NCBI GenBank assembly: GCA_020853025.1
Contig: JADYZP010000029.1
Location: 1-64,000 of the forward strand
Direction: 5' to 3'
Source: Burkholderiales bacterium
Lineage (GTDB): Bacteria; Pseudomonadota; Gammaproteobacteria; Burkholderiales; Casimicrobiaceae
DNA length: 64,000 nt
Positions within the stretch are counted from its first letter, which is position 1; each line of letters opens with the position of its first letter. The position numbers were made by a program, and so were the translations under genes. The notes under the pieces were generated by a model. The model made no database searches. It was given only the letters and a program-made list of their open reading frames with translations, and had not been told where the DNA came from. This document shows positions 28,761 through 46,889 of this stretch, piece after piece.

Positions 28761-28783
28761 CTGATATTCAGGTGATATGTTAG
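28761..28783. promoter_or_regulatory. putative GntR operator, site A
   Basis: Read on the minus strand: CTAACATAT, seven bases, ATATCAG. Both half-sites are identical to site D and highly similar to sites B and C. It is 56 bp upstream of the corrinoid-protein ATG, in the 129-bp gap behind the end of operon II. This is inferred as the operator of the regulator encoded at 43342. Confidence 0.6.
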
Positions 28784-28834
28784 AAGACCCAAAGCCCGAC
28801 CGTCAACTGCTATCACGCAGGAAGTTAATCCGCG

Positions 28835-30715
28835 TCAAGAAATTGGCAATGGGCCGGCGCCAGCGCTGCCGGCCAGCCGCGTCGCCGCCGCCGCCCGGTC
28901 CGGCGGCGGCGATCCCGATCCGCCCCAGCGTTCCCATTCGTTGCACGCCATCGCCGCGGCCGGGTGAAACAGGAGATCGTCGCCAAGCCGCAGACGGCCG
29001 CTCATCGCCAGCCGCTGCACCGCGGCGAATGCGGGGTCGCGCACGCCGACGTCGATCAGCCAGGCCAGGGGTACGCCGTCGTCGGCGAGCGTAGCTTGGA
29101 ACTGCCGCAGCAGCTCCGGCGTACCGTGGACTGCACGCGGCGAACACCTCTGCTCCAGCGTAAACGCGGCCAGCGCACCGGCCGCCTCGCCGATGTTCCA
29201 CTCGACCGGATGCAGCCGGTAACAGCCGTTGGTGATGTGCGTCGTTCCGATGTTCTTGCCGGCGGCGATCAGGTTGTCGATGCGCGCCGGCAGCAGCGCG
29301 CCGAGAGGAATCTGGAATGGGTGGGTGCGTGTGCTGACGCCGACGTCCTCCGCCCCGGCGCGGTGGATGTCGATCGGATACCAGCCGACGCCCACCGAAT
29401 CGTCGAAATGTCGCGCCCGCGGACCGGGCTGGCTGTGCATCGATACGTCCTGCTCGCGCACCGTCGTCAGTGCGCGAATCCTGCGCCCCTCGCGGATGTA
29501 CGGATGTTTCGATAGCCCGTCGGCGCTGCCCATGATCGACGGTACCAGCCGCAGTTCCGGCGCGCCAAGGCGGGTGCCGGTCGCCGGTGCTGCGGTCTGC
29601 AGCCAGTGCAGAAAGCCGAGGCTGGCCCGCTTGGCCTGCTGCAGCGCAGCCGCGACCTCGTGTGCCGGGCGGTCGACGAGGCCGCTGTCGCCGTAGTCAT
29701 TGCCGGGCCAGTTGATCATCGACAGGTCGCAGGGATAGCGCCCGCCGAACTGCGCGCTGTCGATCAGCCGCCGGTAGGTCCACAGCGAGCCCTTGGTGCC
29801 CGGCAGCGTGTCGAAGACGCTGAACGCGAGCCAGCCGCTGTCCTCGCCGTAGATCTCGCCGCCGTGAACCTCGATGCGCAGGCTGTAGCGGTTGGCCGCG
29901 TGCCACGCCGCATAGCCGGGCGGTGCGGGAACGACGTGCGACTCGCCTTCGGGGCGGCGTTCGAGTCCGAAGGTGTAGGTGAAGCTCTGCACGCAATGCG
30001 GCTTCGGCGCGTGTGGTTGCGCGTTCGGCTCGCCGGTCTCCTCGGCGGTCTCGGCGCCGATGCGGTACTCGGCACCGACGAGCGGAAGCAGATCGCCGAG
30101 TTCGGTGGCGTCGAGTACGACCTGCGGGTGGAAGCGGATTGACTCGCCGCGCTCGAGATCGACCGCGCACACCGATGCGATGCGCTCGCCTGCCACCGTC
30201 GCCCCGGTCGCCTTGGTGCGCAGATGCACCTGCAGCCGTCCGGCCGCGACCTGCGGTTGCAGCAGTGTGTTCAGCACGGCGACCGCCACCGCCGGCTCGA
30301 AGGCGAGCCGAGTCACCCAGCAGTTGCCAGGGTTGAACTCAGGCTCTCCGGCGCCGTTCGCCGCCAGCGCGCGGTAGTGCTCGCGCAGCGCTGCGCGCAG
30401 CGCCGTGTAGCTGGCGGTGCCGCCGAAGGCCTCGATGTGCTCGTGCTCGTCCAGCGCCGAGACACCCTGCGCGGTGAACTGGCCCCCAAGCCAGTCGGTT
30501 TCTTCGAGCAGGCAGACGTTGCGGCCGCGGCGCGCGGCCGCGAGCGCGGCGGCAACTCCGCCGGTACCGCCGCCAACGACCAGCACCTCGCAGTCGATAT
30601 CACGCACCGGCTTTTGCTGCGCGACGCGGACCACCGCGAGCGCGGGATCACCGGCCAGCGGAACGCGCATCACGTCGACGATGGCGTCGGCGTGCCGGTC
30701 GCCGGGCAGCATCAT
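28835..30715 (-). CDS. FAD-dependent oxidoreductase (FAD_oxidored family), 626 aa
   Basis: 626 residues. The dinucleotide-binding motif VLVVGGGTGGVAAALAAARRG lies near residue 45, followed by LLEETDWLGGQFT, the hallmark of the FAD-dependent oxidoreductase family PF12831. A late FAD-contact motif is DNLIAAGKNIGTTHI. The mature part has no signal peptide. The start ATG overlaps the stop of dctM (ATGA), so it is co-translated with the TRAP genes and is the last gene of operon II. Substrate unknown; it probably oxidises the imported compound or its demethylation product. The last 30 residues are Pro/Ala-rich and unstructured. Confidence 0.82.
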   Translation of the reverse strand: MMLPGDRHADAIVDVMRVPLAGDPALAVVRVAQQKPVRDIDCEVLVVGGGTGGVAAALAAARRGRNVCLLEETDWLGGQFTAQGVSALDEHEHIEAFGGTASYTALRAALREHYRALAANGAGEPEFNPGNCWVTRLAFEPAVAVAVLNTLLQPQVAAGRLQVHLRTKATGATVAGERIASVCAVDLERGESIRFHPQVVLDATELGDLLPLVGAEYRIGAETAEETGEPNAQPHAPKPHCVQSFTYTFGLERRPEGESHVVPAPPGYAAWHAANRYSLRIEVHGGEIYGEDSGWLAFSVFDTLPGTKGSLWTYRRLIDSAQFGGRYPCDLSMINWPGNDYGDSGLVDRPAHEVAAALQQAKRASLGFLHWLQTAAPATGTRLGAPELRLVPSIMGSADGLSKHPYIREGRRIRALTTVREQDVSMHSQPGPRARHFDDSVGVGWYPIDIHRAGAEDVGVSTRTHPFQIPLGALLPARIDNLIAAGKNIGTTHITNGCYRLHPVEWNIGEAAGALAAFTLEQRCSPRAVHGTPELLRQFQATLADDGVPLAWLIDVGVRDPAFAAVQRLAMSGRLRLGDDLLFHPAAAMACNEWERWGGSGSPPPDRAAAATRLAGSAGAGPLPIS

Positions 30716-32028
30716 CTCGACATCGTCCCGGGTAGCCACATGGCGATCGCCGGAAAGCCGATCACGAGACCCAGTGTCAGCAGCTGCAGGATGATGTAGG
30801 GCCACACCGACGCGAAGATGTCGCCGAGCGTGATGTCCGCAGGCGTCACCCCCTTCAGGTAGAACGCGGCCGGCCCGAACGGCGGCGTGATGTAGGAGAT
30901 CTGCATGTTGAGACAGAAAAGGATGCCGAGCCAGACCGGGTCGAAGCCCAGTTTCTCCGCCACCGGCACGAAGATCGGCGCGGTGAGCAGCAGGATCCCG
31001 ATCCAGTCGATGAAGCAGCCGAGCACGATCCAGATCAGCATGATCATCAGCAGCACGCCGGTCGCCCCGAAGGGCAGCCCGGTCATCCAGTCCTGGATGA
31101 GCTTGGTGCCGCCGGCGAGCGTGTAGACCCCGATCAGCGCCGATGAGCCGAAGAACAGCCAGTAGAGCATTACCGTAACCTTGGTCGTGTCCTGCAGCGC
31201 GGACATCACCGCGCGCCAGCTGAAGCGGCGATTGACGATCATCGCCAGGAACGCGGCGACGACGCCGACGCCGGCCGCCTCGGTGGGCGTCGCCCAGCCG
31301 AGGTAGAGCGAGCCGACCACCGACAGCGCGACGAGGCCGGGGACCACCAGCTCGCGCAGCAGCGCCAGCCGTTCGGAGAGCGGCATCCCGAGCTCCTCGG
31401 CGCTCGCCGGCGGCGCCAGCTCGGGACGCAGCCGGGTGCGCAGCATGATGAAGGCGATGTAGAGGCCGGCGAGCAACAGGCCGGGGCCGATCCCGGCGAC
31501 GTACAGTTCGCCGATCGACACCCCGGCGGTCAGCCCGTACATGATCAGCACGACGCTCGGCGGAATCAGCGTGGCGAGCCCACCACCAGCGCAGATGCAG
31601 CCCAGCGCGAGGCCCTTGTCGTACCGGCGCGCGAGCATCGCCGGCAGCGCGACGACGCCCATGGTCACGATCTCGGCGCCGATGACGCCGACCATCGCCG
31701 CCATCAGCGCGCAGGAGATGATCACCGCCACGGCGAGACCCCCGGGCAGGCGCCCGGACCAGACGTGCACGGCGTGGAAGATCGACTCGGCGACCCCCGC
31801 GCGTTCGAGGATGCACGCCATCAGTATGAACAGCGGCACGGAGACCAGCACGTAGTTGCCCATCAGCGTGAACACGCGGCTCACCACCAGCGTGAGCCCG
31901 GAAACACCGAACAGCGAATAGGCGAACACCACCGCCACCGCGCCGGTGGCGAACGCCAACGGCACCCCCATCAGCAGGATGACGATGAAGACGACGACGA
32001 ACAGCAGGCTGAGCCAGGCGATGCTCAT
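30712..32028 (-). CDS. dctM: TRAP transporter large permease DctM, system 1
   Basis: 438 residues with about twelve membrane segments. It has the DctM signatures VSVPLFILMACILERAG, CAGGGLATLIPPSVVLIMYG and ATPTEAAGVG. It forms the Na+-coupled translocation subunit with DctQ. The ATG overlaps the dctQ stop (TGATG) and the 3' end overlaps the FAD oxidoreductase, so expression is tightly linked. Confidence 0.93.
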   Translation of the reverse strand: MSIAWLSLLFVVVFIVILLMGVPLAFATGAVAVVFAYSLFGVSGLTLVVSRVFTLMGNYVLVSVPLFILMACILERAGVAESIFHAVHVWSGRLPGGLAVAVIISCALMAAMVGVIGAEIVTMGVVALPAMLARRYDKGLALGCICAGGGLATLIPPSVVLIMYGLTAGVSIGELYVAGIGPGLLLAGLYIAFIMLRTRLRPELAPPASAEELGMPLSERLALLRELVVPGLVALSVVGSLYLGWATPTEAAGVGVVAAFLAMIVNRRFSWRAVMSALQDTTKVTVMLYWLFFGSSALIGVYTLAGGTKLIQDWMTGLPFGATGVLLMIMLIWIVLGCFIDWIGILLLTAPIFVPVAEKLGFDPVWLGILFCLNMQISYITPPFGPAAFYLKGVTPADITLGDIFASVWPYIILQLLTLGLVIGFPAIAMWLPGTMSR

Positions 32029-32672
32029 CACAACCGCGCGCGCGCGCCTCCGATTCCCCGCTCGCGGAGCAGGTCGGCGGTCCCCTGCAGCAGGAGCAGC
32101 ACGGCCGCGATCGGGATCGCCATCTTGACCGGCCAGATCCGCGGATTCCACGGTGTGCCGGTGCCTTCACTCTGCTGGAGCGACGTCCAGGCCATGTCCG
32201 TGCCCACCCACACCAGCGCACCGACGTAGCCGGCGAAGAAGACGAACGCGACAAGGTCGAGGCGCTTTCTCGCCGCCGGCGAGAACAGCTGGTAGACGAC
32301 GTCGATGCGTACGTGCCGCCGATACCGCAGCGCGTAGCCGCCGCAGATCAGGTAGGCCATCGCCGACAGGTAGATGGTGGTCTCGTTCGCCCAGGTCGTT
32401 GCGTGCGCGAAAAAGGTTCTGGCGACGACCTCGTAGACGACCGCGAACGTGACCACGAGAATGGCGGTGCCCCAGATGCGACCCATCCACTCGTTGAGCC
32501 CGTCGACGGCATCGCAGAAGCGTTCGACCGGCGAGCGCCCCCCGGGCGGGCGCACGGCGGCCTCCGCTGCCCCTGAAAGGGGCGGCGGAAGCTCGGATGG
32601 CGCGATGTCCCCTTCGGCCGTCTGACCGGAAGCGGCGCCGAGCCGCTTCCCGTCATTCCCCGTGCTCGTCAC
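32028..32672 (-). CDS. dctQ: TRAP transporter small permease DctQ, system 1
   Basis: 214 residues. An N-terminal hydrophilic stretch of about 60 residues precedes four membrane helices (about 65-85, 105-125, 145-170 and 185-205) with the family arginine-rich loop ALRYRRHVRIDVVYQ. I choose the GTG at 32672 because it overlaps the dctP stop (GTGA); the longer frame would run into dctP. The unusually long N-terminus leaves a downstream start possible. Confidence 0.82.
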   Translation of the reverse strand: MTSTGNDGKRLGAASGQTAEGDIAPSELPPPLSGAAEAAVRPPGGRSPVERFCDAVDGLNEWMGRIWGTAILVVTFAVVYEVVARTFFAHATTWANETTIYLSAMAYLICGGYALRYRRHVRIDVVYQLFSPAARKRLDLVAFVFFAGYVGALVWVGTDMAWTSLQQSEGTGTPWNPRIWPVKMAIPIAAVLLLLQGTADLLRERGIGGARARL

Positions 32673-33712
32673 GCAACGAGCCCGATTTCCTTCAGCCAGG
32701 CGATCTGGGAGTCGTAGGCCTGCTTGGCGAGAGGCGTCTTCTTCGACCACTCCTCCCAGGTCTTCTGCGCGAGCGCCCGGATCTTATGCATCTCGGCATC
32801 TCCCCAGACCTCCTGCTTGATGCCCTTCGCGGCGAGTTCCTTAAACACCCGCACGTCGTCGACGTAGACGCGCTGCACCTGGTCCCAGGTCCATTCGTTG
32901 GTGGTGGTGGTGACGATGGCCTTGATCTCGTCGGGCAGCTTCTTCCACTCGGCCATGTTGACGGTGAATTCCTGCACCGGCATCGAATGGAACAGCTTGG
33001 TCGGGTACTTCGCCACGTCATGGAAGCCCATCCGCTGGTTCATGGAGAGGGTCGCCCAGTCGGCGGCGTCGACCACACCCTTGTCGAGCGCCGAGAACAC
33101 CTCGCCACCGGGAAGCACCACGATCGACGCGCCGAGCTTGGTGAGAATCTCCGCGGTCATGCCCTGCGGCGAACGGATTTTCACGCCCTTGAAGTCATCC
33201 ATCGACTTGATCGGTTTCTTCGAGACGAGGCTCTCCACGCCCCACCAGCTCACACCCACCGGGTAGGCGTTGTAGCGGGCGTAGGCATTGCGCAACATAT
33301 CGAGGCCGCCGCGATAGGCGAACCACGCCTGCGCCTGGTACGGATGCTGGTAGCCGAACACGAAGTCGCTGATCACCGCCAGCCCGGCGTCCTTGCCGGA
33401 GAAATACCCAGGCCACGTCGACTGCGCCTGCAGCACGCCGGCGGTCACCGCGTCGAGGGTCTCGAAGACGCCGGTGACCGACCCGGCGGCGAACGGCTCG
33501 ATGATCAGCCGTCCGCCGGTATTCACCTTGACGCGCTCGCAGAAATCCTGGAACACCTTGTAGGTGAGTTCGGCAGCGCTCCACATCGACTGGCAGCGCC
33601 ATCGCGTCACCGTCTGCGCATGGACAATCGCCGGGGCGCCGATCGCCGCCGCTGCACCCGCTACAGCAACCGTGCCGGACTTGAGAAATTTCCGCCTGCT
33701 CGAAGCTTTCAT
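32669..33712 (-). CDS. dctP: TRAP substrate-binding protein DctP, system 1
   Basis: 347 residues. A Tat-type signal peptide is visible (SSRRKFLKSG, hydrophobic core, AIVHAQ cleavage site at about residue 32). The mature part has the TRAP ligand-binding features GVESLVSKKPIKSMDDFKGVK and a KIRSPQG stretch with the conserved carboxylate-binding arginine. The AELTYKVFQDFCERVK and ALDKGVVDAADW segments resemble the 2-oxoacid-binding TakP subgroup, which is only a hint about the ligand. ATG at 33712 with GGGAGG 7 nt upstream. It lies downstream of the PanB homologue by 67 bp. Confidence 0.9.
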   Translation of the reverse strand: MKASSRRKFLKSGTVAVAGAAAAIGAPAIVHAQTVTRWRCQSMWSAAELTYKVFQDFCERVKVNTGGRLIIEPFAAGSVTGVFETLDAVTAGVLQAQSTWPGYFSGKDAGLAVISDFVFGYQHPYQAQAWFAYRGGLDMLRNAYARYNAYPVGVSWWGVESLVSKKPIKSMDDFKGVKIRSPQGMTAEILTKLGASIVVLPGGEVFSALDKGVVDAADWATLSMNQRMGFHDVAKYPTKLFHSMPVQEFTVNMAEWKKLPDEIKAIVTTTTNEWTWDQVQRVYVDDVRVFKELAAKGIKQEVWGDAEMHKIRALAQKTWEEWSKKTPLAKQAYDSQIAWLKEIGLVA

Positions 33713-33779
33713 GCGTACCTCCCTGGGTGATGTGAACGACAAAACCTGCAGGCGTAACCGGGTCCGCCTGCTGACCTGG

Positions 33780-34676
33780 TTAGCGCTTGATCGTTGCCTC
33801 TGCTTGCGATTTCTGCCTGCTCCTTTTCTCGATCTCTTCGGCGAGCTTGCGCTGTTCCTCCGGCTTCATCGCGTAGGAATGCTCGGCGTCGGGGAACACG
33901 CCGGCGCGCACCTCGGTCGCGAACGCGGAGAGCGCGGCGACGGCGACGTCGGCAATCTGGGCATAGCGCTTGGTGAACTTGGGCTTGAACTGGTCGAATA
34001 CCCCCAGCAGGTCGAATGCCAGCAGCAGCTGCCCGCAGCTCGCCGGTCCGGCGCCAATGCCGAAAGTGAAGATCTGCACCGCATCGTCGACGGCCTTGGC
34101 GACCGGTGCGGGGACCGCCTCGATCTCGAAGCCGACCGCACCCGCATCCTCGATGGCGATGCCGTCTTCGATGATCTTCAGTGCGCCGGCCGCCGTGCCG
34201 CCCTGGAGTTTGAAGCCGCCGTACTGGTGCATGAAGTGCGGGCACATGCCGACATGGCTCATCACCGGCACACCGGCATCGGCGATGGCGCGGATGATCG
34301 ACGCCTTCTCCCGGCCTCCCTGCATCTTGACCACGTCGGCGCCGCCCTCTTTCATCAGGCGCACGGCGTTCGTCACGCCAACTTCGGCGCTCGCGTAGCT
34401 GCCGTAGGGCATCGACACCATGATCATGCAATTCGGCGCCCCGCGCCGCACCGCCTGCGCATGCTGAATCATCATGTCGACGGTGACCGGCAGCGTGTTC
34501 GGATGGCCGTAGCTCACCATCCCGAGCGAGTCGCCGACGGCCGCGATGTCGATCCCCGCGCGCTCGGCCCAGATCGCGGACGGATAGTCGGGGATCGACG
34601 CCATGACCACTTTCGCGCCGGCCTTCTTGCGTGCCCGCAGGTCCGGGACACTAAGCTTCGTGCGTTGCTCAGGCAT
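33780..34676 (-). CDS. divergent PanB (ketopantoate hydroxymethyltransferase) homologue, copy 1
   Basis: 298 residues of the PEP mutase/KPHMT TIM-barrel family. Compared with E. coli PanB, the first metal ligand is kept (VGDSLGM, D49) and so is the catalytic Glu (E186 in EAVP). The second metal ligand Asp of the ADLPF motif is Ser (VSMPY, S88), and the VKIEGG glutamate is Gln (VKMQGG, Q119). It is therefore probably not a normal pantothenate enzyme. It may still use methylene-THF, which the locus would produce. The ATG at 34676 aligns with the start of copy 2; an upstream ATG at 34700 overlaps the PhyH stop and is the alternative. C-terminal Lys/Arg-rich tail. Confidence 0.82.
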   Translation of the reverse strand: MPEQRTKLSVPDLRARKKAGAKVVMASIPDYPSAIWAERAGIDIAAVGDSLGMVSYGHPNTLPVTVDMMIQHAQAVRRGAPNCMIMVSMPYGSYASAEVGVTNAVRLMKEGGADVVKMQGGREKASIIRAIADAGVPVMSHVGMCPHFMHQYGGFKLQGGTAAGALKIIEDGIAIEDAGAVGFEIEAVPAPVAKAVDDAVQIFTFGIGAGPASCGQLLLAFDLLGVFDQFKPKFTKRYAQIADVAVAALSAFATEVRAGVFPDAEHSYAMKPEEQRKLAEEIEKRSRQKSQAEATIKR

Positions 34677-34699
34677 GGTTGGCCCCGTACGGTCGCGCA

Positions 34700-35533
34700 T
34701 CAGGCGCGGAACGCCTTCTTGTCGGTGCCCTGGTAAAGCGCGGCCACTTGCCGATCGATCGCGTCCTTGTGCGCAGCGAGGGCGGCGGTGTCGAGGTCGT
34801 GCGCCGGCCGCGGCTCGAGGTCGAAGTTGTGGTGCCGGTCGACGCCGCGCACCATCGTCGCCGAGTCGCGCAGCTTGGTCTGCCGCACACGGGTCGGAAT
34901 GTAGCGGATGGCGAACCCGATCCGGCGGTCGTCCGAGCGGTTGGCGTCGGAGCCGTGGACGAGCTTGATGTGATGCAGCGAAATCTCGCCGGGCTCGAGC
35001 ACGACGTCCACCGCTTTCGCCACGTCGACCTCCACCGCAATTTCCTGGCCGCGCGAGAGCAGATTGTCCTTGTGGAAGGTGTCGACGTGCGGGATCTGCG
35101 ACACCGTGTGCGTCCCCGGGATCACTTTCATGCATCCGGAGAGGAGATTGCTGTCGGTCAGCGCGACCCAGGCCGTAATCACGTCGTCGGGATCGAGTCC
35201 CCAGTAGGTCGAATCCTGGTGCCATGAGACGAACCCCGGGCTGTTGGATTCCTTGATGAAAAAGTTGGTCGTCCAGCACAGGATGTCGGGGCCGATCACG
35301 TCCTCGACCGCGTCGACGATCGCCGGATGGTGGACCAATTCGTCGGCCCAGGTGAACAGCAGGTGCGTCTTGTGCCGCCAGTTGCCCTGCAGCGGCTCGC
35401 CGGCCTTGGCCTCGTGCGCTTCGAGCCGGCGACGAAAGTCGGTTGCGTCGCTCTTGGCCATCACCCGCAGCGGGAAATAGTAGCCGTCGCGCGCGTAAGC
35501 GGCGACCGCGTCGTCGGAAAGCACTTTCGGCAT
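34700..35533 (-). CDS. phytanoyl-CoA dioxygenase (PhyH) family enzyme, copy 2
   Basis: 277 residues, Fe(II)/2-oxoglutarate oxygenase. The iron ligands are visible as SWHQDSTYW (His-X-Asp) and KLVHGSDANRS (distal His). The 2-oxoglutarate arginine is in RRIGFAIRYIP. Closest in layout to ectoine-hydroxylase-like and uncharacterised PhyH proteins. The ATG has AAGGAGGAG 7 nt upstream. Downstream, TGATG touches an alternative start of the PanB homologue, so the two are probably co-translated. Being in operon II with an FAD enzyme and a di-iron hydroxylase suggests an oxygen-dependent branch of the pathway. Confidence 0.88.
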   Translation of the reverse strand: MPKVLSDDAVAAYARDGYYFPLRVMAKSDATDFRRRLEAHEAKAGEPLQGNWRHKTHLLFTWADELVHHPAIVDAVEDVIGPDILCWTTNFFIKESNSPGFVSWHQDSTYWGLDPDDVITAWVALTDSNLLSGCMKVIPGTHTVSQIPHVDTFHKDNLLSRGQEIAVEVDVAKAVDVVLEPGEISLHHIKLVHGSDANRSDDRRIGFAIRYIPTRVRQTKLRDSATMVRGVDRHHNFDLEPRPAHDLDTAALAAHKDAIDRQVAALYQGTDKKAFRA

Positions 35534-35585
35534 CAGTCTCCTCCTTGTGGTCGATGGAGTGCCATCATGGCAGCGAGGGGATGGG

Positions 35586-37001
35586 TTAGGGCGAGTCGGC
35601 GGCCGCATGGCAATCGCCGCCGTCGGGTCCGGCTGGCACCATTGCCGCAGCGTACGCGAGCCCGGCGCTCGCGCCAAGCCGAGCCCCGTCACGGTCGACG
35701 CGCCGGCGAACGTCTTCGCCGCGCAGCATGCGCGGCTCGCAGCCGGCGTCGATGCACATCGCCGCGGCGTGGCCGATGGCGTGGCCGTAGGAGAAGCACT
35801 GCGCGGTGACCCGAGCCGACGCCACTGCCTCGTGCTGCGCCGACAGGCAGCGCCCGGCGATGAGCAGGCCGTCGCCGTGCTGAGGCACGAAGCAGCCGTA
35901 CGGCACCTCGTAGCAGTCGTCGAGCAACCACTCGACCCGCGGTCGCGCGCCGGCGTGCAGTTCGATGGGCCACGGCGAGCGGGCAATCCCGTCGGCGAAC
36001 TTGGCGCCGCGGACGACATCGTCGTTGCGAAGCAGCGAGACTCCTCGCACCTGTCGCGTCTGGCGCACTCCGACCTGCACGCCGGTGTCGTTGACGAAGC
36101 AGGCCTCACAGCCGGCGAGGTGGTCGCGGAAGAAGCGTGCGTATTCGCGGACCTGGCGCCGGCCTTCGATTTCGGCATCGGTGAAATCCGCTGCCAGCAG
36201 CGTGTTGAGCTCGCGCCCATCCGCTCCGATCACCCGCGTGCAGTTGCATAGCAGCTCACCGGGGCGGGTAGTCGTGAACAGCCAGATCTTAGCGCGCGGC
36301 AGATCGTAGCCGGCACCGTGATGGCGGCGCAACAGCTCCGAAACCGGCTCCGGCATGATGGTGTCGCCGCCGTACGCGGCGAGGAAGCGCGCGGTGTCTA
36401 CGCCACCGAGCCGGAAGATCATCGTCGGGTTCTGTAGCCGGCCGTCGTCGCCGACAAACGTGGGCCACCCCGCCATCGCCACCAGGTCGGCGTCCCCGCT
36501 GGCGTCGATGGTGATCCTGGCGCGGACCGCGAGCTCACCCTGCTTGGTATACGCAACGAGCCCCGCGGCACGATCGCCGTCCAGCAGGACGCCGGTGACG
36601 GTGCTATGGAAGAGCACCCGCACGCCGACGTCGCGCAGCAACGCGTCGGCTGCCTCCCGCCAGACCAGCGGGTCGTGCACGCGCGTCCAGGTCTTGCCGT
36701 AGCGGACCGGCGGGGTGAGTCCGCCGCGCGAGGCGAGCAGCCGGACGAACTCGTCGGCGAAGCCGTAGACAACCTGCTCCGGCGGCGCTGCCGGGTCTGC
36801 ACTGGCCGCGTACAGGCCGCACACGGTGCCCGACATGCCGGCCACCGCGCCGCCCCCGCAAAAGCCATAGCGTTCGACCAGCGTTACCGAGAGCCCCTGG
36901 CGGGCGGCGGTGACGGCGGCCGCCACGCCTGCCGCGCCGCCGCCGGCAACCACGACGTCGGTCGCGATCGTCGACTGCGGACGGTGGTCGACGCGGGTCA
37001 C
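35586..37001 (-). CDS. FAD-dependent oxidoreductase (FAD_oxidored family), 471 aa
   Basis: 471 residues. The N-terminal VVVAGGGAAGVAAAVTAARQG FAD motif is near residue 16, then LVERYGFCGGGAVAGMSG and the late GDGLLIAGRCLSAQHEAVAS segment with a flavin-contact GRC. Same PF12831-type family as the 626-residue enzyme at 28835 but only distantly similar. The start is GTG with no strong ribosome site, 24 bp after the hydroxylase gene. Substrate unknown; redox work on the TRAP-imported compound is the likely role. Confidence 0.8.
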   Translation of the reverse strand: MTRVDHRPQSTIATDVVVAGGGAAGVAAAVTAARQGLSVTLVERYGFCGGGAVAGMSGTVCGLYAASADPAAPPEQVVYGFADEFVRLLASRGGLTPPVRYGKTWTRVHDPLVWREAADALLRDVGVRVLFHSTVTGVLLDGDRAAGLVAYTKQGELAVRARITIDASGDADLVAMAGWPTFVGDDGRLQNPTMIFRLGGVDTARFLAAYGGDTIMPEPVSELLRRHHGAGYDLPRAKIWLFTTTRPGELLCNCTRVIGADGRELNTLLAADFTDAEIEGRRQVREYARFFRDHLAGCEACFVNDTGVQVGVRQTRQVRGVSLLRNDDVVRGAKFADGIARSPWPIELHAGARPRVEWLLDDCYEVPYGCFVPQHGDGLLIAGRCLSAQHEAVASARVTAQCFSYGHAIGHAAAMCIDAGCEPRMLRGEDVRRRVDRDGARLGASAGLAYAAAMVPAGPDGGDCHAAADSP

Positions 37002-37903: not shown

Positions 37904-37926
37904 CTGACATATCAGACGTATATTCG
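37904..37926. promoter_or_regulatory. putative GntR operator, site B
   Basis: CTGACATAT, seven bases, ATATTCG. It matches the shared consensus in the left half-site and four of seven in the right, and lies 57 bp upstream of the hydroxylase ATG in the 130-bp gap before the upstream dctM gene. Confidence 0.55.
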
Positions 37927-39830: not shown

Positions 39831-39900
39831 GGCACCTCGCTGGAACGAAGGAATCCCGCGCACACGCCGGATGGCCCGGCGCGTGGCGGGAGGGTCGCTG

Positions 39901-39954
39901 GAGCGGGCAGCGGGTACGCGTGCGGCGCTATGCCGTCCGCCGCCGCACCCGCTC
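39901..39954 (-). other. intercistronic stem-loop between dctP and dctQ
   Basis: The arms GAGCGGG...GTGCGGCG and CGCCGCCGCACCCGCTC can pair with one internal bulge. In the direction of transcription it lies about 46 nt after the dctP stop and before dctQM. No T-run follows, so it is more likely an RNA-stabilising or attenuating hairpin than a full terminator, as is common between binding-protein and permease genes. Confidence 0.4.
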
Positions 39955-39999
39955 CGGCTTCACCGATGCGCGCTTGCGCGGTGCGCGCTCACGACCTCA

Positions 40000-41070
40000 C
40001 TACCCCTTGACCTTCACCTTGCGCCAGTGGTCGGCGTCCTTCCAGAGGACCTCGAATTCCTGCTGGCTCTTGAAGACCTTGGCGAACCAGGGGTTGCCGG
40101 CGGCCGTCTTGGCCGCCCACGCGAGGCCAATCCTGCGCGCCTCGTATTGCACCTCGGGGTCGAGTTCGATGATGACGTTGCCGGCCTTGCGGTAGAAATC
40201 GAGCGCCTTGGCGTCCTCCTCGCCGATCTTGAGCCAGCTCTCGAAAGTAACCAGCTGGGCGATCAGGTCCAGCATCGATTGGTCGGCCGGAGTGAGCTTG
40301 CCCCAGACTTCCTTGTTGATGCACAGCTCGAATGGTGCCGTCGGCTGGTGAACGCCCGGGTAGATGAGGTACTTCGCCACCTTGTAGAAGCCGGGACTGA
40401 TGTTCTCCCACAGCGTGCCCCATTCGGTGGCATCGATGGCGCCGCGCTCGAGCATCGGGTAGACGTCGCCACCGGCGGTGGTCACCGGCGCCGCCCCGAG
40501 TTCCTTCGCCATTTCCAGCCATGATCCGGCGGTGCGGAGCTTGAGGCCCTTGAGGTCAGCGAGAGTCTTCACCGGCTTGCGCGAGTGCAGGAACACCTCC
40601 GCAGTGCGGATGAACAGCACCGTCGAGATGATTCCGGCTTCCTGTTCGCGGAACTGACGCTGCAACTGGACGCCACCGGCTTCGTAGAGCCAGTGCAACA
40701 TCCGCTCGGTGTCGAACGACCCGGCGTAGCCGCCGAACAGCACGGTGGTCGGGTCCTTGCCCCAGTCGTAGCCCATCCAGGTGTGCCCGAGTTCGGCGAT
40801 GCCGTTCTTCACCGTTTCCGGCACCTTCAGCGCGTTGCCGAGCGCGCCGCCGGGGAAGGTCTGGATCTTGATCCGCCCACCCGTGAACTGCTCGACGCGC
40901 TGCGCGTAGAGCTTGGCGCCGATCTCCATCAGCGGCCCGCCCGGCCAGGCGGTCGCCATTTTCCAACTGTAGCTCTGCGCGCCTTGCGCGCGCGCAGCCG
41001 TCGTGGCCATCGCGGTAGCCGCGGTCGCCGCCGCCATCGCACCTGCCTTCAAGAAATCACGCTTTCTCAT
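40000..41070 (-). CDS. dctP: TRAP substrate-binding protein DctP, system 2
   Basis: 356 residues. The N-terminus RKRDFLKAGAMAAAT is a Tat-like signal with cleavage near AARAQ (about residue 29). The mature protein has the DctP features WKMATAWPGG, ADLKGLKLRTAGSW with the ligand-binding arginine, and AIDATEWGT. ATG with GGAGG 5-6 nt upstream. Low similarity to DctP of system 1. It precedes dctQM of the same system in operon III and follows the fused methyltransferase, which suggests the transporter brings in the substrate of that enzyme. Confidence 0.9.
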   Translation of the reverse strand: MRKRDFLKAGAMAAATAATAMATTAARAQGAQSYSWKMATAWPGGPLMEIGAKLYAQRVEQFTGGRIKIQTFPGGALGNALKVPETVKNGIAELGHTWMGYDWGKDPTTVLFGGYAGSFDTERMLHWLYEAGGVQLQRQFREQEAGIISTVLFIRTAEVFLHSRKPVKTLADLKGLKLRTAGSWLEMAKELGAAPVTTAGGDVYPMLERGAIDATEWGTLWENISPGFYKVAKYLIYPGVHQPTAPFELCINKEVWGKLTPADQSMLDLIAQLVTFESWLKIGEEDAKALDFYRKAGNVIIELDPEVQYEARRIGLAWAAKTAAGNPWFAKVFKSQQEFEVLWKDADHWRKVKVKG

Positions 41071-41208: not shown

Positions 41209-43137
41209 TCACGCCGTCGCCGTCTCCCGGTCGGCAATCAGCCGCTTCACCAGCCGCACTGCCTCGACGGCATTCGGTGCGAAGCCGTCGGCGCCGATCT
41301 GGGCGGCGAATTGCGCGCTGACCGGTGCACCACCGACGATCACCATGCATTGCGTGTCGAGGCCGCGCTCCTTGACGCCGGCGACGAGCGCGCGCATCTC
41401 GCCCATCGTCGTCGTCAGCAGCGACGACAGGCCGAGGACGTTCGGCTCGAAATCGGCGATCTCCGTGTAGAACTTCTCGCGCGACACGTTGATGCCGAGG
41501 TCGCGGACTTCGAAGCCGACGCCGCGCAGCATGGTGGCGACGAGATTCTTGCCGACGTCGTGCATGTCGCCGGCGACGGTGCCGATCAGCACCTTGCCTC
41601 GCTGCTGCTCGCCGGTCGCCGCGAGTCGCGGCGCGAGCACGTCCACGGCCGTCGCCATCGCCCGCGCCGCGAGCAGCACCTCGGGGATGAAGGCGGCGCC
41701 GGAGGCCATCCGCTCGCCGACCACGCTGATGGCGGCGATGAGCCCGCGCTCCAGGATCTCGCCGGGAGCCAGTCCGCGGTCGAGCAACTCCTGGACATGC
41801 GCCACGATGTCGCGATGCCGGCCCTTGAAAACATCCTGTCGGACCTGGTCGTATTCGTCGGCGGGCGTCGCGATGGCGGCCGGTTTCTCGGGTGCCGCGG
41901 CGGCGAAGGTCGGAGCGGGCCGGAAGGCCCCGGCGGCGAGCGGCAGCCTCCCTTCCTTTTCGATCCGTTCGCCGATGCGCTGCAGCCGCGAGAATACGGC
42001 GGAGGGTGGGACCTCGTCGGCGATTCCGATGACGATGCGCTTGCCCGGCGCAACGGCACGGAACAATTCATCCATGTACGCTTCGAACTCGGCCTCGCTC
42101 GTGCCGGGCATCACGACTGTCGACGGAATCCCGCCGAACAGCGTGAGGTTGCCGCTCCAGTGCCGGTAGTACTCGGCGAGCGTCACCTTGGTCATCGGCG
42201 CCGGGCAGAACGACTCGGCGACGTGCATCCCCGAATCGCGGACCAGGTCCATCAGCCCGCGGTTCTCGCCGTCGGTGTGACACAGCACCAGCTTGCCGAC
42301 CGCCCCCAGCCGGTCCGCGGCCTTGCGGATCCACGGCTGGATCTCCTGCGCGAAATACGGCGGGAAAGTCAGCATATCGTCGAAGTTGGCGCCCCACCAT
42401 ACCACTTCTGCCGGCGATGCCGCGAGGATGTCGAGTTGTTTCTCCATCAGCGGCGCGATCCGCTCGGCGAGCCCGCACATCTCGCGGTAGTGATCCTTGT
42501 AATGGATGAAAAACTGCGTGGCGTCGGAGAGGTCGCGCTGGATGGTGTGAAACGGCGACGCATCGAACGAGCCGATGGCGACCGGCTGTCCGTTGTCGCC
42601 CATGTCGTCCGCCGCCCAGCGACGGAAGCGATCGAAGTTGGGGACCACGTCCATGTGCTCGAACAGGTAGCCCGCCGGCGCGTAGTCCTGCGGCGTCTTG
42701 ATCAAATGCTCGACCAGCGCCGGAATGGTGATTCCGTGTCGCTGCGAATCGACATCGTAATGGGTGGTCGTGCTGACCATGCCCACGGGTGTGTGGTATT
42801 CGACGCGCGTGCGCGGCCCGTCGCGATGTACCCGCACCTCGACGTCCTTCGGCAGCACCACGTCGAACACCGTGTCCCGGCTGTAGAAGATGTTGATGCC
42901 TCGGTGCAGGTACAGCGGCTGGTACTCCGGTGCCAACTGGTCGTCGCAGAAGCGGTGATGGAAAGCCCAGCCTTCGGCGCGTGCAATGTCGTTCATCGCC
43001 ACGCCGGCGTACTGACGCGGCAGCGTGCCGGAGGTCGAATTGGCGAGATACCACAGGTCGAGCCGCGGCACGTACGGCAGCCGATCCACCGTCTCGCCGC
43101 GAAGCGCTGCGAGCACACGGGTTCTGTGTGTGTACAT
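41209..43137 (-). CDS. UroD-type methyltransferase fused to corrinoid-binding domain (CmuA-like architecture)
   Basis: 642 residues in one chain. Residues 1-400 are a UroD-fold methyltransferase (HRTRVLAALRGETVDRLPY start; LCHTDGENRGLM, again His-X-Asp where MtaA has His-X-Cys). A Pro/Ala-rich linker follows (about 405-440), then a helical cap and a B12-binding Rossmann domain with AGDMHDVGKNLV (His about 526) and IVGGAPVSAQFAAQIGAD. The same order is known from chloromethane methyltransferase CmuA. The ATG at 43137 has AAGGAGGAAACC directly upstream, so the longer frame is rejected. It probably demethylates the ligand of TRAP system 2, with transfer to THF by the pterin enzyme of operon I. 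Chloromethane as the substrate is not supported, because a gas needs no TRAP transporter. Confidence 0.9.
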   Translation of the reverse strand: MYTHRTRVLAALRGETVDRLPYVPRLDLWYLANSTSGTLPRQYAGVAMNDIARAEGWAFHHRFCDDQLAPEYQPLYLHRGINIFYSRDTVFDVVLPKDVEVRVHRDGPRTRVEYHTPVGMVSTTTHYDVDSQRHGITIPALVEHLIKTPQDYAPAGYLFEHMDVVPNFDRFRRWAADDMGDNGQPVAIGSFDASPFHTIQRDLSDATQFFIHYKDHYREMCGLAERIAPLMEKQLDILAASPAEVVWWGANFDDMLTFPPYFAQEIQPWIRKAADRLGAVGKLVLCHTDGENRGLMDLVRDSGMHVAESFCPAPMTKVTLAEYYRHWSGNLTLFGGIPSTVVMPGTSEAEFEAYMDELFRAVAPGKRIVIGIADEVPPSAVFSRLQRIGERIEKEGRLPLAAGAFRPAPTFAAAAPEKPAAIATPADEYDQVRQDVFKGRHRDIVAHVQELLDRGLAPGEILERGLIAAISVVGERMASGAAFIPEVLLAARAMATAVDVLAPRLAATGEQQRGKVLIGTVAGDMHDVGKNLVATMLRGVGFEVRDLGINVSREKFYTEIADFEPNVLGLSSLLTTTMGEMRALVAGVKERGLDTQCMVIVGGAPVSAQFAAQIGADGFAPNAVEAVRLVKRLIADRETATA

Positions 43138-43167
43138 GGTTTCCTCCTTACCGACAGCGATCGAAGA

Positions 43168-43263: not shown

Positions 43264-43341
43264 GCGGCATCGGCGTGCCGCGGCGCGCAGGTTCGCGCTC
43301 GCGACCCGTGCCGGCGACTCCGTTGGCGGTGGTGTTGTGCA

Positions 43342-44031
43342 TCATCGAAAGTCGTTGCTGACGGTGGCGCGCGTGAACGCCTCGATCTTGTCGATCAGCC
43401 GGTCGGTGCCCGTTGCGGCGCCATCCTCGTCGCCGGCGGCGATCGCGCGTGCGATATCTGCGTGCAGCTTGGCGGTCTCGGGCATGTCGGGTGTCTGCTG
43501 GTAGTGGTGGTACCAGAAGCGCCGCGACAGCGACTGCGTAAGCCGCATTGCGCTGACCGTGAATTCGTTGCCGGCGGCAACGAGGCAGAGCTCGTTGAAG
43601 GCGCGGTCCACGCGCATGAAGGCGATGCCGTCGTTGCGCCGTGCGCTCTTCTCGAACTTGTCGGCGATCTCGTCGAAGCGTGCGCGCACGTCCGCAGTCG
43701 CCCGCCGCGCAGCGCTGCGCGCCAGCAGCCGCTCGACTTCGCGGCGCAGCTCGAGCAGGCGCAGCTGGCCACTGACGTTGATGTCGGAGACGATCACTCC
43801 GCGGCGCGGCAGGATAATGACCAGGCGCTCGCGGGCAAGGCGCTGCAGCGCCTCGCGGATCGGCGTGCGACCGATGTCGAGCCGCTGCGAGAGCTCGCCC
43901 TCGGACACCGCCGTGCCCGGGGGCAGCTGCAGCGTGACAATCAGCTCCTCGATCTCCGTGTACGCCTTCTCGGTCAGCGTCTGCGGCCCTCGTGGGCTCG
44001 CCGCAGCTGCGCGAGGCGGTCGCGGCGTCAG
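43342..44031 (-). CDS. GntR family regulator, FCD subfamily
   Basis: 229 residues. The N-terminal winged helix-turn-helix is at about residues 25-90 (AYTEIEELIVTLQLPPG, LSQRLDIGRTPIREALQRLARERLV), followed by an all-helical FCD ligand-binding domain with the metal-type motif DRAFNELCLVAAG and HADIARAI. No ATG, GTG or TTG exists in frame near the conserved N-terminus. The best start is CTG at 44031, overlapping the PanB-homologue stop as CTGA. FCD regulators usually repress degradation operons and respond to an organic acid. The shared 23-bp sites A-D are its likely operators. A site sits in front of its own operon, giving autoregulation. Confidence 0.85.
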   Translation of the reverse strand: MTPRPPRAAAASPRGPQTLTEKAYTEIEELIVTLQLPPGTAVSEGELSQRLDIGRTPIREALQRLARERLVIILPRRGVIVSDINVSGQLRLLELRREVERLLARSAARRATADVRARFDEIADKFEKSARRNDGIAFMRVDRAFNELCLVAAGNEFTVSAMRLTQSLSRRFWYHHYQQTPDMPETAKLHADIARAIAAGDEDGAATGTDRLIDKIEAFTRATVSNDFR

Positions 44032-44897
44032 AGTTGTCGTCTTTTTTGCATCATGCCGAGGAATCGTTCGTACTCCTTGTCGTCGACGCCATAGCTGTGG
44101 TCGTCGTCGGGGAAGCTGCCCGACTTGACGTCCGCAACGTACTCCTCGATGCCGCGCACGGCGACCTCGGTCAGGTTCGCGTAGCGCTTGGTGAACTTCG
44201 GCTTGAAATCGGTAAACACGCCCAGCAGGTCGTGGCAGAGCAGAATCTGGCCGTCGGTGCCCACGCCGGCGCCGATGCCGATGGTCGGTATCTCCAGCTC
44301 TGCGCTGATGACGCGGGCGATCTTCGCCGGCACCGCCTCGAACTCGAGCATGAAGCAGCCAGCGTCCTGGATGGCGAGCGCATCTTCGAGGATCTTCATC
44401 GCGGCGTCCGCGGTACGGCCCTGGATCCGGAAGCCTCCGAACATGGCGATGGTGTGCGGCGTCAGCCCGATGTGCGACGCTGTCGGAATACCGGCGTCGA
44501 CCAGCGCCTTCAGGATGTGCGCCTGCGCTTTGCCGCCCTGCGGCTTTACCGCATCGCACAGCGCTTCCTGCATGAAACGCGTGGCGTTGGCGAGCGCCCG
44601 GTCGACGCTGTTGTAGCTCTGATAGGGCATGCAGCCCAGCACGAACGTATTCGGCGCGCCCCGGCGCACCGCGCGCGCGTGCATCACCATCATTTCCATC
44701 GTCGCCGGAATCGTGTTCGGATGTCCGTGCGCGATCATCGCCAGGCTGTCGCCGACCACCGCGACGTCGATTCCGGCCATCTCGGCCCACCGGGCGGATG
44801 TGTAGTCGGGCACCGACATGTAGACCATCTTCTCGCCGGTCCGCTTCGAGTCGCGGATGTCGCCGATCGTGCGCTTCTTTCGCTCCTGCTCGGCCAC
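44028..44897 (-). CDS. divergent PanB (ketopantoate hydroxymethyltransferase) homologue, copy 2
   Basis: 289 residues of the KPHMT family. D50 (VGDSLAM) and the catalytic Glu (FEAVP) are kept. The second metal ligand is Cys (LGCMPY, C89) and the VKIEGG glutamate is Gln (VKPQGG, Q120), the same two positions that are changed in copy 1. The start is GTG with AAGGAGG about 9 nt upstream, and it aligns with copy 1 from its MPEQ start. First gene of operon III, translationally coupled to the GntR gene (CTGA overlap). The two copies are clearly paralogous, but not recent duplicates. A folate-C1 transfer role is inferred. Confidence 0.82.
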   Translation of the reverse strand: MAEQERKKRTIGDIRDSKRTGEKMVYMSVPDYTSARWAEMAGIDVAVVGDSLAMIAHGHPNTIPATMEMMVMHARAVRRGAPNTFVLGCMPYQSYNSVDRALANATRFMQEALCDAVKPQGGKAQAHILKALVDAGIPTASHIGLTPHTIAMFGGFRIQGRTADAAMKILEDALAIQDAGCFMLEFEAVPAKIARVISAELEIPTIGIGAGVGTDGQILLCHDLLGVFTDFKPKFTKRYANLTEVAVRGIEEYVADVKSGSFPDDDHSYGVDDKEYERFLGMMQKRRQL

Positions 44898-44910
44898 TGC
44901 CGCCTCCTCC

Positions 44911-44933
44911 TTGACATGCGACTCATATATCAG
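44911..44933. promoter_or_regulatory. putative GntR operator, site C
   Basis: TTGACATGC, seven bases, ATATCAG. The right half-site is identical to sites A and D and the left keeps TnACAT. It sits only 14 bp before the PanB-homologue GTG and overlaps its ribosome site, and is 165 bp upstream of the rightward homocysteine methyltransferase gene, so it may control both directions. Confidence 0.5.
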
Positions 44934-45097
44934 CATTGTGCCACGGGACGCCAACTTGCGCACCGCGTCCCCGTGCGGCTCTGCTCGGGTCGCGATGTGC
45001 CACGGCATCGCCGAAACTTGTCCCGCGTCAACGCGGTGGGTGCCGTTCGCTGCACAATGGACAGGGAGCGCGTTGGCGTCGCACTCTGGAGACTTCG

Positions 45098-46078
45098 ATG
45101 AGCAACCTGCTGAGCCGGCTGCTGGAGCACAAGGACGTCGTGGTTGCCGACGGCGCGATGGGGACAAACCTCTTTCTGGTCGGCCTGGGCAAGGGCGACA
45201 ACGGCACCGCGTGGAACACCGAGCGGCCCGACGCGGTAAAGGGGATTCACCAAGGCTTCGTCGATGCGGGAGCCGACATCCTGCTGACGAACACGTTCGG
45301 TGCGAGCCGCATCCGCCTTGCGCTGCACCACCTGGAAGATCGCGCGCAGGAGTTCAACATCGCCGGGGCGCGCATCGCGCGGGAAGTCGCCGAGCGGGCC
45401 GGCCGTCCGATCGTCGTCGCAGGCGACATGGGGCCGATCGGTGACGTACTGGAGCCGTTGGGCTCGCGCAGCGCGGCCGAGGCCGAAGAGGCGTTCTACC
45501 AGCAGGCTGTCGCGCTGAAGGAGGGCGGCGTCGATATCGCGTGGATCGAGACGATGTTCGCCGACAACGAGCTCGACGCGGCGGTTCGCGCCGTCCATCG
45601 CGCCGGCCTCGACTACGTAGCGACGATGACCTTCGATACCGGCGGGCGGACCATGATGGGCGTGCGGCCCGAAGACGCAATGCGCCGCAGCCGCAGTTTT
45701 TCGTGGCGGCCAATCGCCTTCGGTGCGAACTGCGGCGTGGGACCGTCGCAGTTGATGGATTCGGTCATCGGGCTCGTGCGGGGCGCCGACGGAAGCTCGA
45801 TTGTCGTCGCCAAGAGCAACTGCGGCATTCCCGTGCTCGACAATGACATGCGCGTTCGCTACAACGGCACGCCGGAGGTGCTCGCGACCTACGCCTGCAT
45901 GGCGCGCGACGCCGGCGCGCGTATCATCGGCGGCTGTTGCGGAACGACCGCAGAGCACATCAGGTGCATGGTCGCGGCGCTCGCGAGCCGGCGCAAGGGG
46001 CCGCCGCCGTCGTACGAGCAAATCGAGCGCGCGCTGGGTCCGTTGCAGTCGACCGGTGCGCCGGAGACCGTCCGATGA
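45098..46078 (+). CDS. homocysteine S-methyltransferase family protein (BHMT/MetH N-domain-like)
   Basis: 326 residues, a zinc TIM barrel of PF02574. Visible motifs are VVADGAMGTNLF, LTNTFGAS, the first zinc cysteine in FGANCGVGP, and the double zinc cysteine in IIGGCCGTTAEHI. Members move a methyl from betaine, S-methylmethionine, dimethylsulfoniopropionate-type or corrinoid donors to homocysteine. Here it may use methyl groups from the locus or serve as another demethylase. ATG with CTGGAG about 8 nt upstream. Divergent from operon III across site C; downstream are the toxin-antitoxin genes (40 bp). Confidence 0.85.
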   Translation: MSNLLSRLLEHKDVVVADGAMGTNLFLVGLGKGDNGTAWNTERPDAVKGIHQGFVDAGADILLTNTFGASRIRLALHHLEDRAQEFNIAGARIAREVAERAGRPIVVAGDMGPIGDVLEPLGSRSAAEAEEAFYQQAVALKEGGVDIAWIETMFADNELDAAVRAVHRAGLDYVATMTFDTGGRTMMGVRPEDAMRRSRSFSWRPIAFGANCGVGPSQLMDSVIGLVRGADGSSIVVAKSNCGIPVLDNDMRVRYNGTPEVLATYACMARDAGARIIGGCCGTTAEHIRCMVAALASRRKGPPPSYEQIERALGPLQSTGAPETVR

Positions 46079-46118
46079 GCAGGTCCGACGCAGGCTTGGT
46101 ACGCCGGCAGGAGCATCG

Positions 46119-46373: not shown

Positions 46374-46699
46374 TGGAGGCGACGAGCCGCATGCAGTTCA
46401 CGTTCCAGGCGTGCGCCGACCTCAACAACATCTGGGAGTCGATCGCGATGCCGAGCGACCTCTGGGGGTCGACCAATGCCGAGCACCTGGCCGCCGCGCG
46501 TAACTTCGCCGAAAGCTTCGAGCAGCTCTGCCAGCTCATCACGCTGCACCCGGAGATGGGTCCCCCACGCGACACGCTGCAGGACGGCATCCGCAGCCTG
46601 CTGTTCCAGCGCTACGTGATCTTCTACCGTATCCGCGGCAACTGCGTCGAGGTGATGCGGGTGCTGCGCGCTTCACGCGACCTCGACGCCGTCGTCTGA
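46373..46699 (+). CDS. ParE/RelE-type toxin
   Basis: 108 residues of the ParE/RelE superfamily. The typical layout is present: a helical hairpin with ADLNNIWESIA, then the central AARNFAESFEQLCQLITLHPEMG segment, then the beta-sheet with RSLLFQRYVIFYRI and a C-terminal VEVMRVLRASRDLD. ParE members poison gyrase and RelE members cleave mRNA; the sequence does not decide. Starts in the TGATG overlap with the antitoxin gene. Confidence 0.82.
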   Translation: MEATSRMQFTFQACADLNNIWESIAMPSDLWGSTNAEHLAAARNFAESFEQLCQLITLHPEMGPPRDTLQDGIRSLLFQRYVIFYRIRGNCVEVMRVLRASRDLDAVV

Positions 46700-46866
46700 G
46701 CGAGGGAGTGATGGCGCGAAGGTCGCCGCGCTGCAGGCGATCTTCCTCGGTGTCTGATCGCGTCGCCGCACGCCCGCGGCGCGCCCGATGCCGCCTCCGT
46801 CGTTTGGCCACAGGCGGGCATCCCGGCGGAACTTGATCCAGGTCTTCGAGCTGCGGCCGCCAGCAA

Positions 46867-46889
46867 CTAACATATAATCGGTATATCAG
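46867..46889. promoter_or_regulatory. putative GntR operator, site D
   Basis: CTAACATAT, seven bases, ATATCAG, with both half-sites identical to site A read on the other strand. It lies 46 bp upstream of the fhs ATG. A TATAAT sequence is contained in the site (46873-46878), so a bound regulator would cover a -10 element. Confidence 0.6.

Follow-up and report, generated by a model that had tools for sequence, protein, structure and literature searches.

A candidate GntR/FCD regulon with predicted oxygen input in a corrinoid methyl-transfer gene cluster of Burkholderiales

Corrinoid-dependent demethylation in aerobes is already known from the marine MtgBCD system for glycine betaine, which uses another methyltransferase family (PMC12478193; this and the other PMC sources cited below are drawn on through partial text). 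GntR proteins of the FadR (FCD) subfamily usually recognize a GT-N3-AC operator core, which is non-defining and has exceptions in NanR, NagQ and BioR (PMC4494728), and Fnr/Anr proteins recognize the box TTGATNNNNATCAA (PMC4505428), a class II Fnr site being centred at -42 over the -35 element in a mapped promoter (PMC5934665). Here we describe a stretch of 64,000 nucleotides (hereafter, the window; positions 1 to 64,000 of contig JADYZP010000029.1, assembly GCA_020853025.1) from a Burkholderiales bacterium of the Casimicrobiaceae, in which four palindromic operators head the transcription units of a cluster for corrinoid methyl transfer, hydroxylation and TRAP uptake. Judging from the sequence, we consider it probable that the cluster's own GntR/FCD protein acts at these sites and that an Fnr-type oxygen input acts in addition at the corrinoid promoters and at some promoters of fhs, the formate-tetrahydrofolate ligase gene. 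In Burkholderiales equipped with O2-dependent hydroxylase genes, corrinoid methyl-transfer enzymes were unexpected; for such a system, the present results supply a defined operator, name a candidate regulator and predict an input from oxygen.

Operators of the cluster and their relation to the GntR gene

Scanning the window confirmed the four 23-bp sites proposed in an initial annotation (operators A to D; Table 1). Their arms are constantly spaced, as had been claimed, while the exact pattern given for them, CTRACATAT-N7-ATATCAG, is found at A and D only: operator B has two mismatches, with ATATTCG as its right arm, and operator C has three, or two if C or T is allowed at the fifth base. A and D share identical half-sites around different cores, in agreement with the same annotation. 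When up to three mismatches were allowed, the window yielded four places (five rows), compared to 0.07 expected from 100 shuffles, and a pattern scan of the whole assembly (3,651,638 bases in 71 contigs, 93.9% complete) added to A-D one weak place on another contig (C60:69120), beside reading frames. Apart from that one match, the scan agrees with a regulon limited to the locus. A matrix built from the four sites scored them at 29.9-33.2 bits, values that are partly circular because of this construction, and the next place in the window reached 8.3 bits. The gaps between operator and start codon, counted by eye, are 55 bp for A, 56 bp for B, 13 bp for C and 46 bp for D, so that the 56-57 bp previously given for A and B were right within a base or two. 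The sites are intergenic and each heads its own unit, as had been proposed, with the proviso that for C this requires PanB to begin with the GTG at 44897, the start used here, which has a good ribosome site (AAGGAGG); use of an upstream in-frame ATG would place operator C within the reading frame.

The operator is conserved in related clusters. GntR orthologues (62-79% identity; matches of 38-56% were excluded from the count) occur in 10 of the 99 other genomes searched, and a matrix search of the clusters in GntR-plus genomes and the window gave 32 sites with the symmetric consensus CTRAYATAY-nAnTn-RTATRTYAG. Operators precede the hydroxylase gene in relatives as well, and PanB also in G025, G009, G069 and G004; the sites in relatives include records titled as Alphaproteobacteria lineages. 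A second collection comprised at least 80 loci, eight of them duplicate contigs already among the relatives; because these loci were found through GntR similarity, nearness to gntR is partly built in. Here, the four-site matrix placed its best 23-mer before a cluster gene (within 300 bp upstream or 20 bp into the gene, zones that make up 6.7% of the DNA) in 70 of the 80 listed loci, compared to a mean of 14.5 and a maximum of 59 over 200 matrices with permuted columns. Sites of 15 bits numbered 154 in total and occurred in 72 of the 80. The conservation in orthologous clusters that had been named as a check is borne out by both the 32-site motif and these loci.

Across genomes, the sites track the GntR gene, as examined in four ways that are free of this built-in nearness. 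We searched with the pattern 50 of 100 genomes, a selection that covered the whole genus (22 genomes) and every one of the 11 GntR-plus genomes, and found sites in 10 of the 11 GntR-plus genomes versus 6 of the 39 GntR-minus ones. The 17 places in GntR-plus genomes were all at cluster genes, 16 of them on the GntR contig and the seventeenth before a corrinoid-protein gene on another contig of G004, and the eight places in the six GntR-minus genomes roughly match the frequency obtained with the reversed pattern as control (10 places in 50 genomes). Within the genus, the pattern separated five of five GntR-plus from none of 17 GntR-minus genomes (Fisher test, 3.8e-5, ignoring the kinship of the loci). 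The pattern is stricter than the matrix and misses the sites of G053 (GntR-plus), G003 and G020. Starting instead from the hydroxylase gene, present in 15 of the 100 genomes at 1e-40, all 11 GntR-plus genomes had a site before it according to the 32-site matrix, whose training sites had come from those very clusters. The four other hydroxylase genomes (G003, G020, G097 and G077) lie outside the training set. Among them, G097, which is 100% complete, keeps the hydroxylase at 77% identity, but neither a GntR match at 1e-30 nor any instance of the pattern was found in this genome, and the matrix reaches at most 3.0 at its hydroxylase; G077 likewise has no site at the hydroxylase (matrix score 8.9). 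UroD-type methyltransferase genes at 1e-60 were found in five of the 100 genomes, all GntR-plus, and no operator was found at a second UroD copy of G009 (C370). A pattern search of 399 genomes of the order with one mismatch allowed, too strict to inform past one cluster match, gave three places, of which one is D and another lies in G149 between GntR and hydroxylase. With this co-occurrence and the natural absence in G097, the GntR/FCD protein, first named as candidate binder from the window, appears to be a well-supported assignment.

The GntR protein carries an N-terminal winged helix-turn-helix (wHTH; PF00392, 57.8 bits versus a cut-off of 27) and a C-terminal FCD domain (PF07729, 74.1 versus 24.3 bits), and its closest NCBIfam models, phnR_burk and NanR, are both far under cut-off. 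By its domains, the system is a local FCD-type GntR regulon; membership in the FadR subfamily rests on these two domains and not on the operator core. The placement of the operators is of the autoregulation type: of the 154 sites in the listed loci, 26 are nearest gntR and 21 precede PanB, which in relatives is often the first gene of the gntR operon.

At the 5' end of gntR, no in-frame ATG, GTG or TTG start lies nearby (43978-44054). In several relatives, stop and start codons overlap as TGATG or ATGA at the panB/gntR junction; this place reads TGACG here, with ACG instead of ATG, which suggests that gntR starts at ACG or CTG. A programmed PanB-GntR frameshift at the A6 run that ends PanB was considered and dropped in view of the stop-start overlaps of relatives, which have the same relative frame, and of the ACG that replaces ATG here. 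In locus L041 (7238-8114), a 46%-identical GntR paralogue stands by a B-type TRAP operon with the variant site CTGCCATGTCACTACCATGGCAG, suggestive of a shifted specificity, and in Cupriavidus necator (L073, 5281-10636) GntR and hydroxylase are accompanied by an MFS transporter of the acid type, an iron alcohol dehydrogenase and an alpha/beta hydrolase, a set that may represent a simpler form of the pathway in cultured strains. On a tree of 81 GntR proteins, corrinoid genes are present in 17 rows with about seven label changes, at least three of them forced; they appear to have been gained or lost repeatedly, with absences that are soft (flanks of 10 kb).

Promoter structure and FNR-type boxes

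At the corrinoid promoters, a TTGACA-like hexamer lies 16-18 bp ahead of an operator hexamer such as TAACAT or TAATAT. Upon counting -35/-10 pairs at a threshold of 9/12 matches, with the shuffled flank as control, we found the -10 within the operator at 10 of 13 corrinoid-protein and 7 of 11 UroD-fusion promoters (control 2-3%) and at 13 of 42 hydroxylase promoters (control 4%); in the window, a pair of this kind is present at A. The overlap may be the reason that CTAACATAT is a frequent left arm. A protein bound over the -10 blocks polymerase in known systems, and the location of the -10 inside the operator suggests that the corrinoid promoters are repressed by occlusion.

The corrinoid promoters also carry FNR-type boxes, which, like the overlap with the -10, were not part of the initial annotation. 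Perfect TTGAYNNNNRTCAA boxes occur within 130 bp of the operators 12 times, compared to 0.77 expected (165 operators). Counting boxes with at most one mismatch within 300 bp where an operator is present, and with eight duplicate contigs removed, we found them at 10 of 13 corrinoid-protein genes, 10 of 11 UroD fusions and one of two fhs genes (21/26 in sum), versus none of 42 hydroxylase, 2 of 29 PanB and 2 of 36 gntR genes; the contrast between corrinoid/fhs and hydroxylase genes has a p of 3.5e-13, kinship again ignored. With or without operator, the hydroxylase genes have no box (0/73), and 42 of these 73 have an operator by the 300-bp measure, a fraction that is probably lowered in part because gene starts were extrapolated from alignments. 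Regardless of the operator, boxes precede 25 of 33 corrinoid/fhs genes versus 12 of 174 hydroxylase, PanB, DctP and PhyH genes, and in relatives 13 of 17 copies of the UroD-corrinoid fusion gene have one with at most one mismatch. Beyond the boxes of Table 1, the 17-52 kb region of the window holds one other place at this stringency, at 17853. A second UroD set of G009 (L164, 940-7843) has a perfect FNR-type box before its UroD fusion and no GntR operator.

Several spacings between the centres of box and operator (57.5, 47.5 and 26.5 bp) recur in different loci. Measured from the start predicted via the -10, 14 of 20 corrinoid boxes lie at -59.5 to -62.5 and three at -42.5, where the -35 is poor; the remaining three are at -28.5 (L165) and -31.5 (the UroD fusions of L052 and L066). 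The class I Fnr position is -61.5. In relatives and window together, 17 of the 20 boxes are thus at class I- or class II-type positions, as judged from predicted starts.

Proposed control by substrate and oxygen

Without effector, a GntR dimer would occupy CTRAYATAY-N5-RTATRTYAG, and in most corrinoid promoters, where the operator covers the -10, polymerase would be excluded. Binding of an effector, probably a small acid of the pathway, would free four units together: TRAP uptake, hydroxylase/PhyH/PanB, the corrinoid demethylase with MetF, and fhs, the product of which would forward the resulting one-carbon units via tetrahydrofolate. Oxygen would act through the FNR-type box, which lies either about 60 bp (class I) or 42 bp (class II) upstream of the predicted start; the corrinoid promoters and the fhs promoters of some genomes would fire only with substrate and little oxygen, and the hydroxylase promoter would need substrate only. 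We tentatively entertain the further idea that a single effector-sensing GntR protein opens two chemically opposite routes for the same class of methylated substrate, namely an O2-requiring one through hydroxylase and PanB and an O2-labile, Fnr-gated one through the corrinoid enzymes. On this idea, the cluster would be a substrate-by-oxygen switch that feeds one-carbon units into tetrahydrofolate, with fhs as outlet in some lineages.

Several observations weigh against this reading, along with the limits given above for the Fisher tests, the 32-site matrix and the GntR-derived loci. Among the 80 listed loci, the best 23-mer lies elsewhere in 10, eight have no 15-bit site (L067, L081, L091, L100, L101, L111, L114 and L123), and 23 of the 154 sites are near none of the queried genes. 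The drafts G003 and G020 score 22.9 and 24.1 bits at the hydroxylase with no match to a GntR orthologue; GntR may be unassembled there, as the contigs measure 4.2 and 4.8 kb. The symmetrised motif has A at position 11, T at 13 and Y/R at 9/15, not GT-N3-AC. No excess of -10 overlap was found at PanB (3/29, control 5%), gntR (2/36, control 7%) or fhs (0/2), and in the window the tested pair at B lies outside the operator and none was found at C or D. Concerning oxygen, the window's boxes at A and D are imperfect (one and two mismatches), five of 22 loci with corrinoid genes have no FNR-type box (L032, L055, L076, L100 and L105), and 7 of 30 DctP_C genes, all operator-less, have a one-mismatch box, accounting for 7 of the 12 noted above. 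Lastly, an O2-dependent PhyH gene closes operon A and weakens a clean anaerobic-arm reading: since PhyH needs oxygen, a strictly anaerobic arm is unlikely and low oxygen fits better.

The fhs gene is above the Pfam cut-off in 6 of the 22 genomes of the genus, and the operator precedes it in G000, the window's genome, and G018 only; none was found at the fhs genes of G004 and G069, which have GntR (G069 lies outside the genus), nor of G008, G011 and G016, which are GntR-minus. The operator-less fhs genes of G004, G008, G011 and G016 have no box either, and that of G069 has a perfect box. Control of fhs is thus a case of local recruitment. The membership of fhs in the regulon that was proposed initially holds for operator D and its counterpart in G018 as a lineage-specific trait, and does not extend to the other fhs genes examined.

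That a different regulator binds the operators, with the GntR gene a mere passenger of the cluster, would suit the absence of the core usual in FadR-subfamily proteins, the seven FCD-domain matches of the genome (one 40% identical to the cluster GntR) and the matrix sites of G003 and G020. We regard this as quite improbable, however, since pattern sites track GntR across genomes, G097 retains the hydroxylase with neither GntR match nor site, the two exceptions are on short contigs, sites before gntR or its operon are what autoregulation predicts, and the best score within 3.6 kb around the 40% paralogue is 9.0 bits. GntR might also activate rather than repress: operators and start codons in the window are separated by variable stretches of 13 to 56 bp, the promoter positions are predictions, and the -10 overlap is not enriched at PanB, gntR and fhs. 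Activation nevertheless seems unlikely in view of the enriched overlap at corrinoid-protein, UroD-fusion and hydroxylase promoters. The resemblance of the four sites could finally stem from chance among AT-rich promoter stretches, and as the arms resemble -10 boxes, promoter function may account for part of it; we rejected this idea, the likelihood of which is negligible, on the basis of the shuffles, the single further place in the assembly and the four-site matrix test in relatives, conservation having already refuted it.

The oxygen input is open to a separate objection, as the box TTGAYNNNNRTCAA is common to several members of the Crp/Fnr family. It may be read by another member, such as a nitric-oxide sensor, or not report oxygen at all, and four proteins of G000 match the Crp HTH model. 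Two of these four proteins, however, are of Fnr type with N-terminal cysteine clusters like those of oxygen-sensing Fnr, and against the NCBIfam Fnr cut-off of 228 bits one scores above (245 bits) and one just below (221.8 bits). We consider this alternative doubtful, although of appreciable weight. Control by the cluster-encoded GntR protein, with Fnr-type input at the corrinoid and some fhs promoters, is our preferred reading.

Gene content and relation to described systems

The gene units were assigned with Pfam and NCBIfam (Table 1). Unit A consists, in order, of genes for the corrinoid protein, UroD methyltransferase, pterin methyltransferase, RACo, MetF, DUF1638 and PhyH, and contains the four-component demethylase set in one operon, with UroD, B12-binding, Pterin_bind and RACo genes above cut-off, adjacent and on one strand. 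Unit B runs from the membrane hydroxylase (PF04116) through an FAD oxidoreductase, PhyH, PanB and TRAP DctPQM to a second FAD oxidoreductase, unit C comprises PanB, GntR/FCD, the UroD-corrinoid fusion and a second TRAP set, and unit D is fhs. Between C and D lie a homocysteine S-methyltransferase gene and a ParDE-type toxin-antitoxin pair (45801-46699); G018 repeats the order methyltransferase-ParDE-fhs, and G009 has ParDE next to the methyltransferase. An eight-T run followed by a nine-G run separates operator D from the fhs start (46915-46931), possibly an assembly artefact or a phase-variable tract. A reading frame of 3207 amino acids occupies 435-10058 at the beginning of the window. An Rfam scan of 17000-52000 returned no family at the gathering threshold, leaving an RNA reading unsupported.

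Table 1. Coordinates of operators, promoter elements and genes in the window
Feature	Position	Strand	Remarks
Operator A	28761..28783	-	Ahead of corrinoid-protein operon; left arm holds predicted -10 TAACAT
Operator B	37904..37926	- (pattern itself reads plus; palindrome)	Ahead of FA-hydroxylase/FADox/PhyH/PanB/TRAP operon
Operator C	44911..44933	-	Ahead of PanB-GntR operon, 13 bp to start codon
Operator D	46867..46889	+	Ahead of fhs; TATAAT within
Predicted sigma-70 promoter, corrinoid operon	28777..28806	-	TTGACG-18-TAACAT; -10 within operator A
FNR-type box TTGACGCGGATTAA	28825..28838	-	1 mismatch; centre 59.5 bp from operator A centre, ~-61.5 from predicted start
FNR-type box TTGATGCAGATCAA	43250..43263	.	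Perfect; ~113 bp before UroD-corrinoid fusion gene
FNR-type box	45018..45031	.	1 mismatch; between homocysteine S-methyltransferase and PanB
FNR-type box, degenerate	46833..46846	+	2 mismatches; before fhs; G018 counterpart perfect
UroD methyltransferase, pterin-binding methyltransferase, RACo activator, MetF, DUF1638, PhyH	20919..28035	-	Profile matches
Corrinoid protein (B12-binding)	28070..28705	-	Profile match
FADox1, PhyH, PanB, TRAP DctPQM, FADox2 (B operon)	28835..37001	-	Profile matches
Membrane hydroxylase (PF04116)	37026..37847	-	Often accompanies GntR gene
TRAP transporter DctP-DctQ-DctM (C operon)	37978..41070	-	Profile matches
UroD-type methyltransferase fused to corrinoid domain	41209..43137	-	UroD Pfam match below cut-off
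GntR/FCD regulator gene	43342..44027	-	wHTH+FCD at 43345-43977
PanB-family hydroxymethyltransferase	44028..44897	-	GTG start
Homocysteine S-methyltransferase	45098..46078	+	Divergent from PanB
fhs, formate-tetrahydrofolate ligase	46936..48609	+	Sole copy found in this assembly

In the open-licence PMC literature, we found no description of this operator or regulon, nor of a corrinoid demethylase that GntR and Fnr would control jointly. The word GntR is not in the text of the MtgBCD paper (PMC12478193), and a term search of the partial text of PMC10418091 returned none of the words GntR, TRAP, hydroxymethyltransferase and phytanoyl. The unit of hydroxylase, GntR and operator also occurs in cultured Cupriavidus and Paraburkholderia, so that laboratory strains offer a way to look for the regulator and its effector, and possibly for the substrate of the pathway.

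The enzymes of the cluster resemble two known systems. What they share with marine MtgBCD is a predicted transfer of methyl groups via a corrinoid onto tetrahydrofolate in aerobic bacteria, together with a MetF homologue, an activator of the RamA type and DUF1638, whereas methyltransferase I is here of the UroD type and not of the pfam06253 MtgB family (PMC12478193), and PanB, membrane hydroxylase and TRAP genes are attached. With the four-component O-demethylases and CdmBCA of acetogens (compare PMC13222342) they have in common the grouping of UroD-type methyltransferase, corrinoid protein, pterin methyltransferase and RACo, and the UroD-type methyltransferase matches CdmB in the PDB (9rui, E 1e-6); unlike those systems, the cluster is found in Burkholderiales and includes O2-dependent hydroxylase genes and a GntR operator. 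As in local repressors of the FadR (FCD) subfamily, wHTH and FCD domains go together with palindromic operators at the regulator's own and neighbouring catabolic promoters, but the operator is based on ATAY-N5-RTAT, without the usual GT-N3-AC core (PMC4494728). As in class I and II Fnr/Anr promoters, the box is TTGATNNNNATCAA (PMC4505428), with 14 of 20 boxes near -60 and 3 of 20 at -42.5 from predicted starts; here, in contrast, the box is combined with a GntR operator enclosing the -10 and is seen at corrinoid promoters and part of the fhs promoters, whereas the hydroxylase promoters have none.

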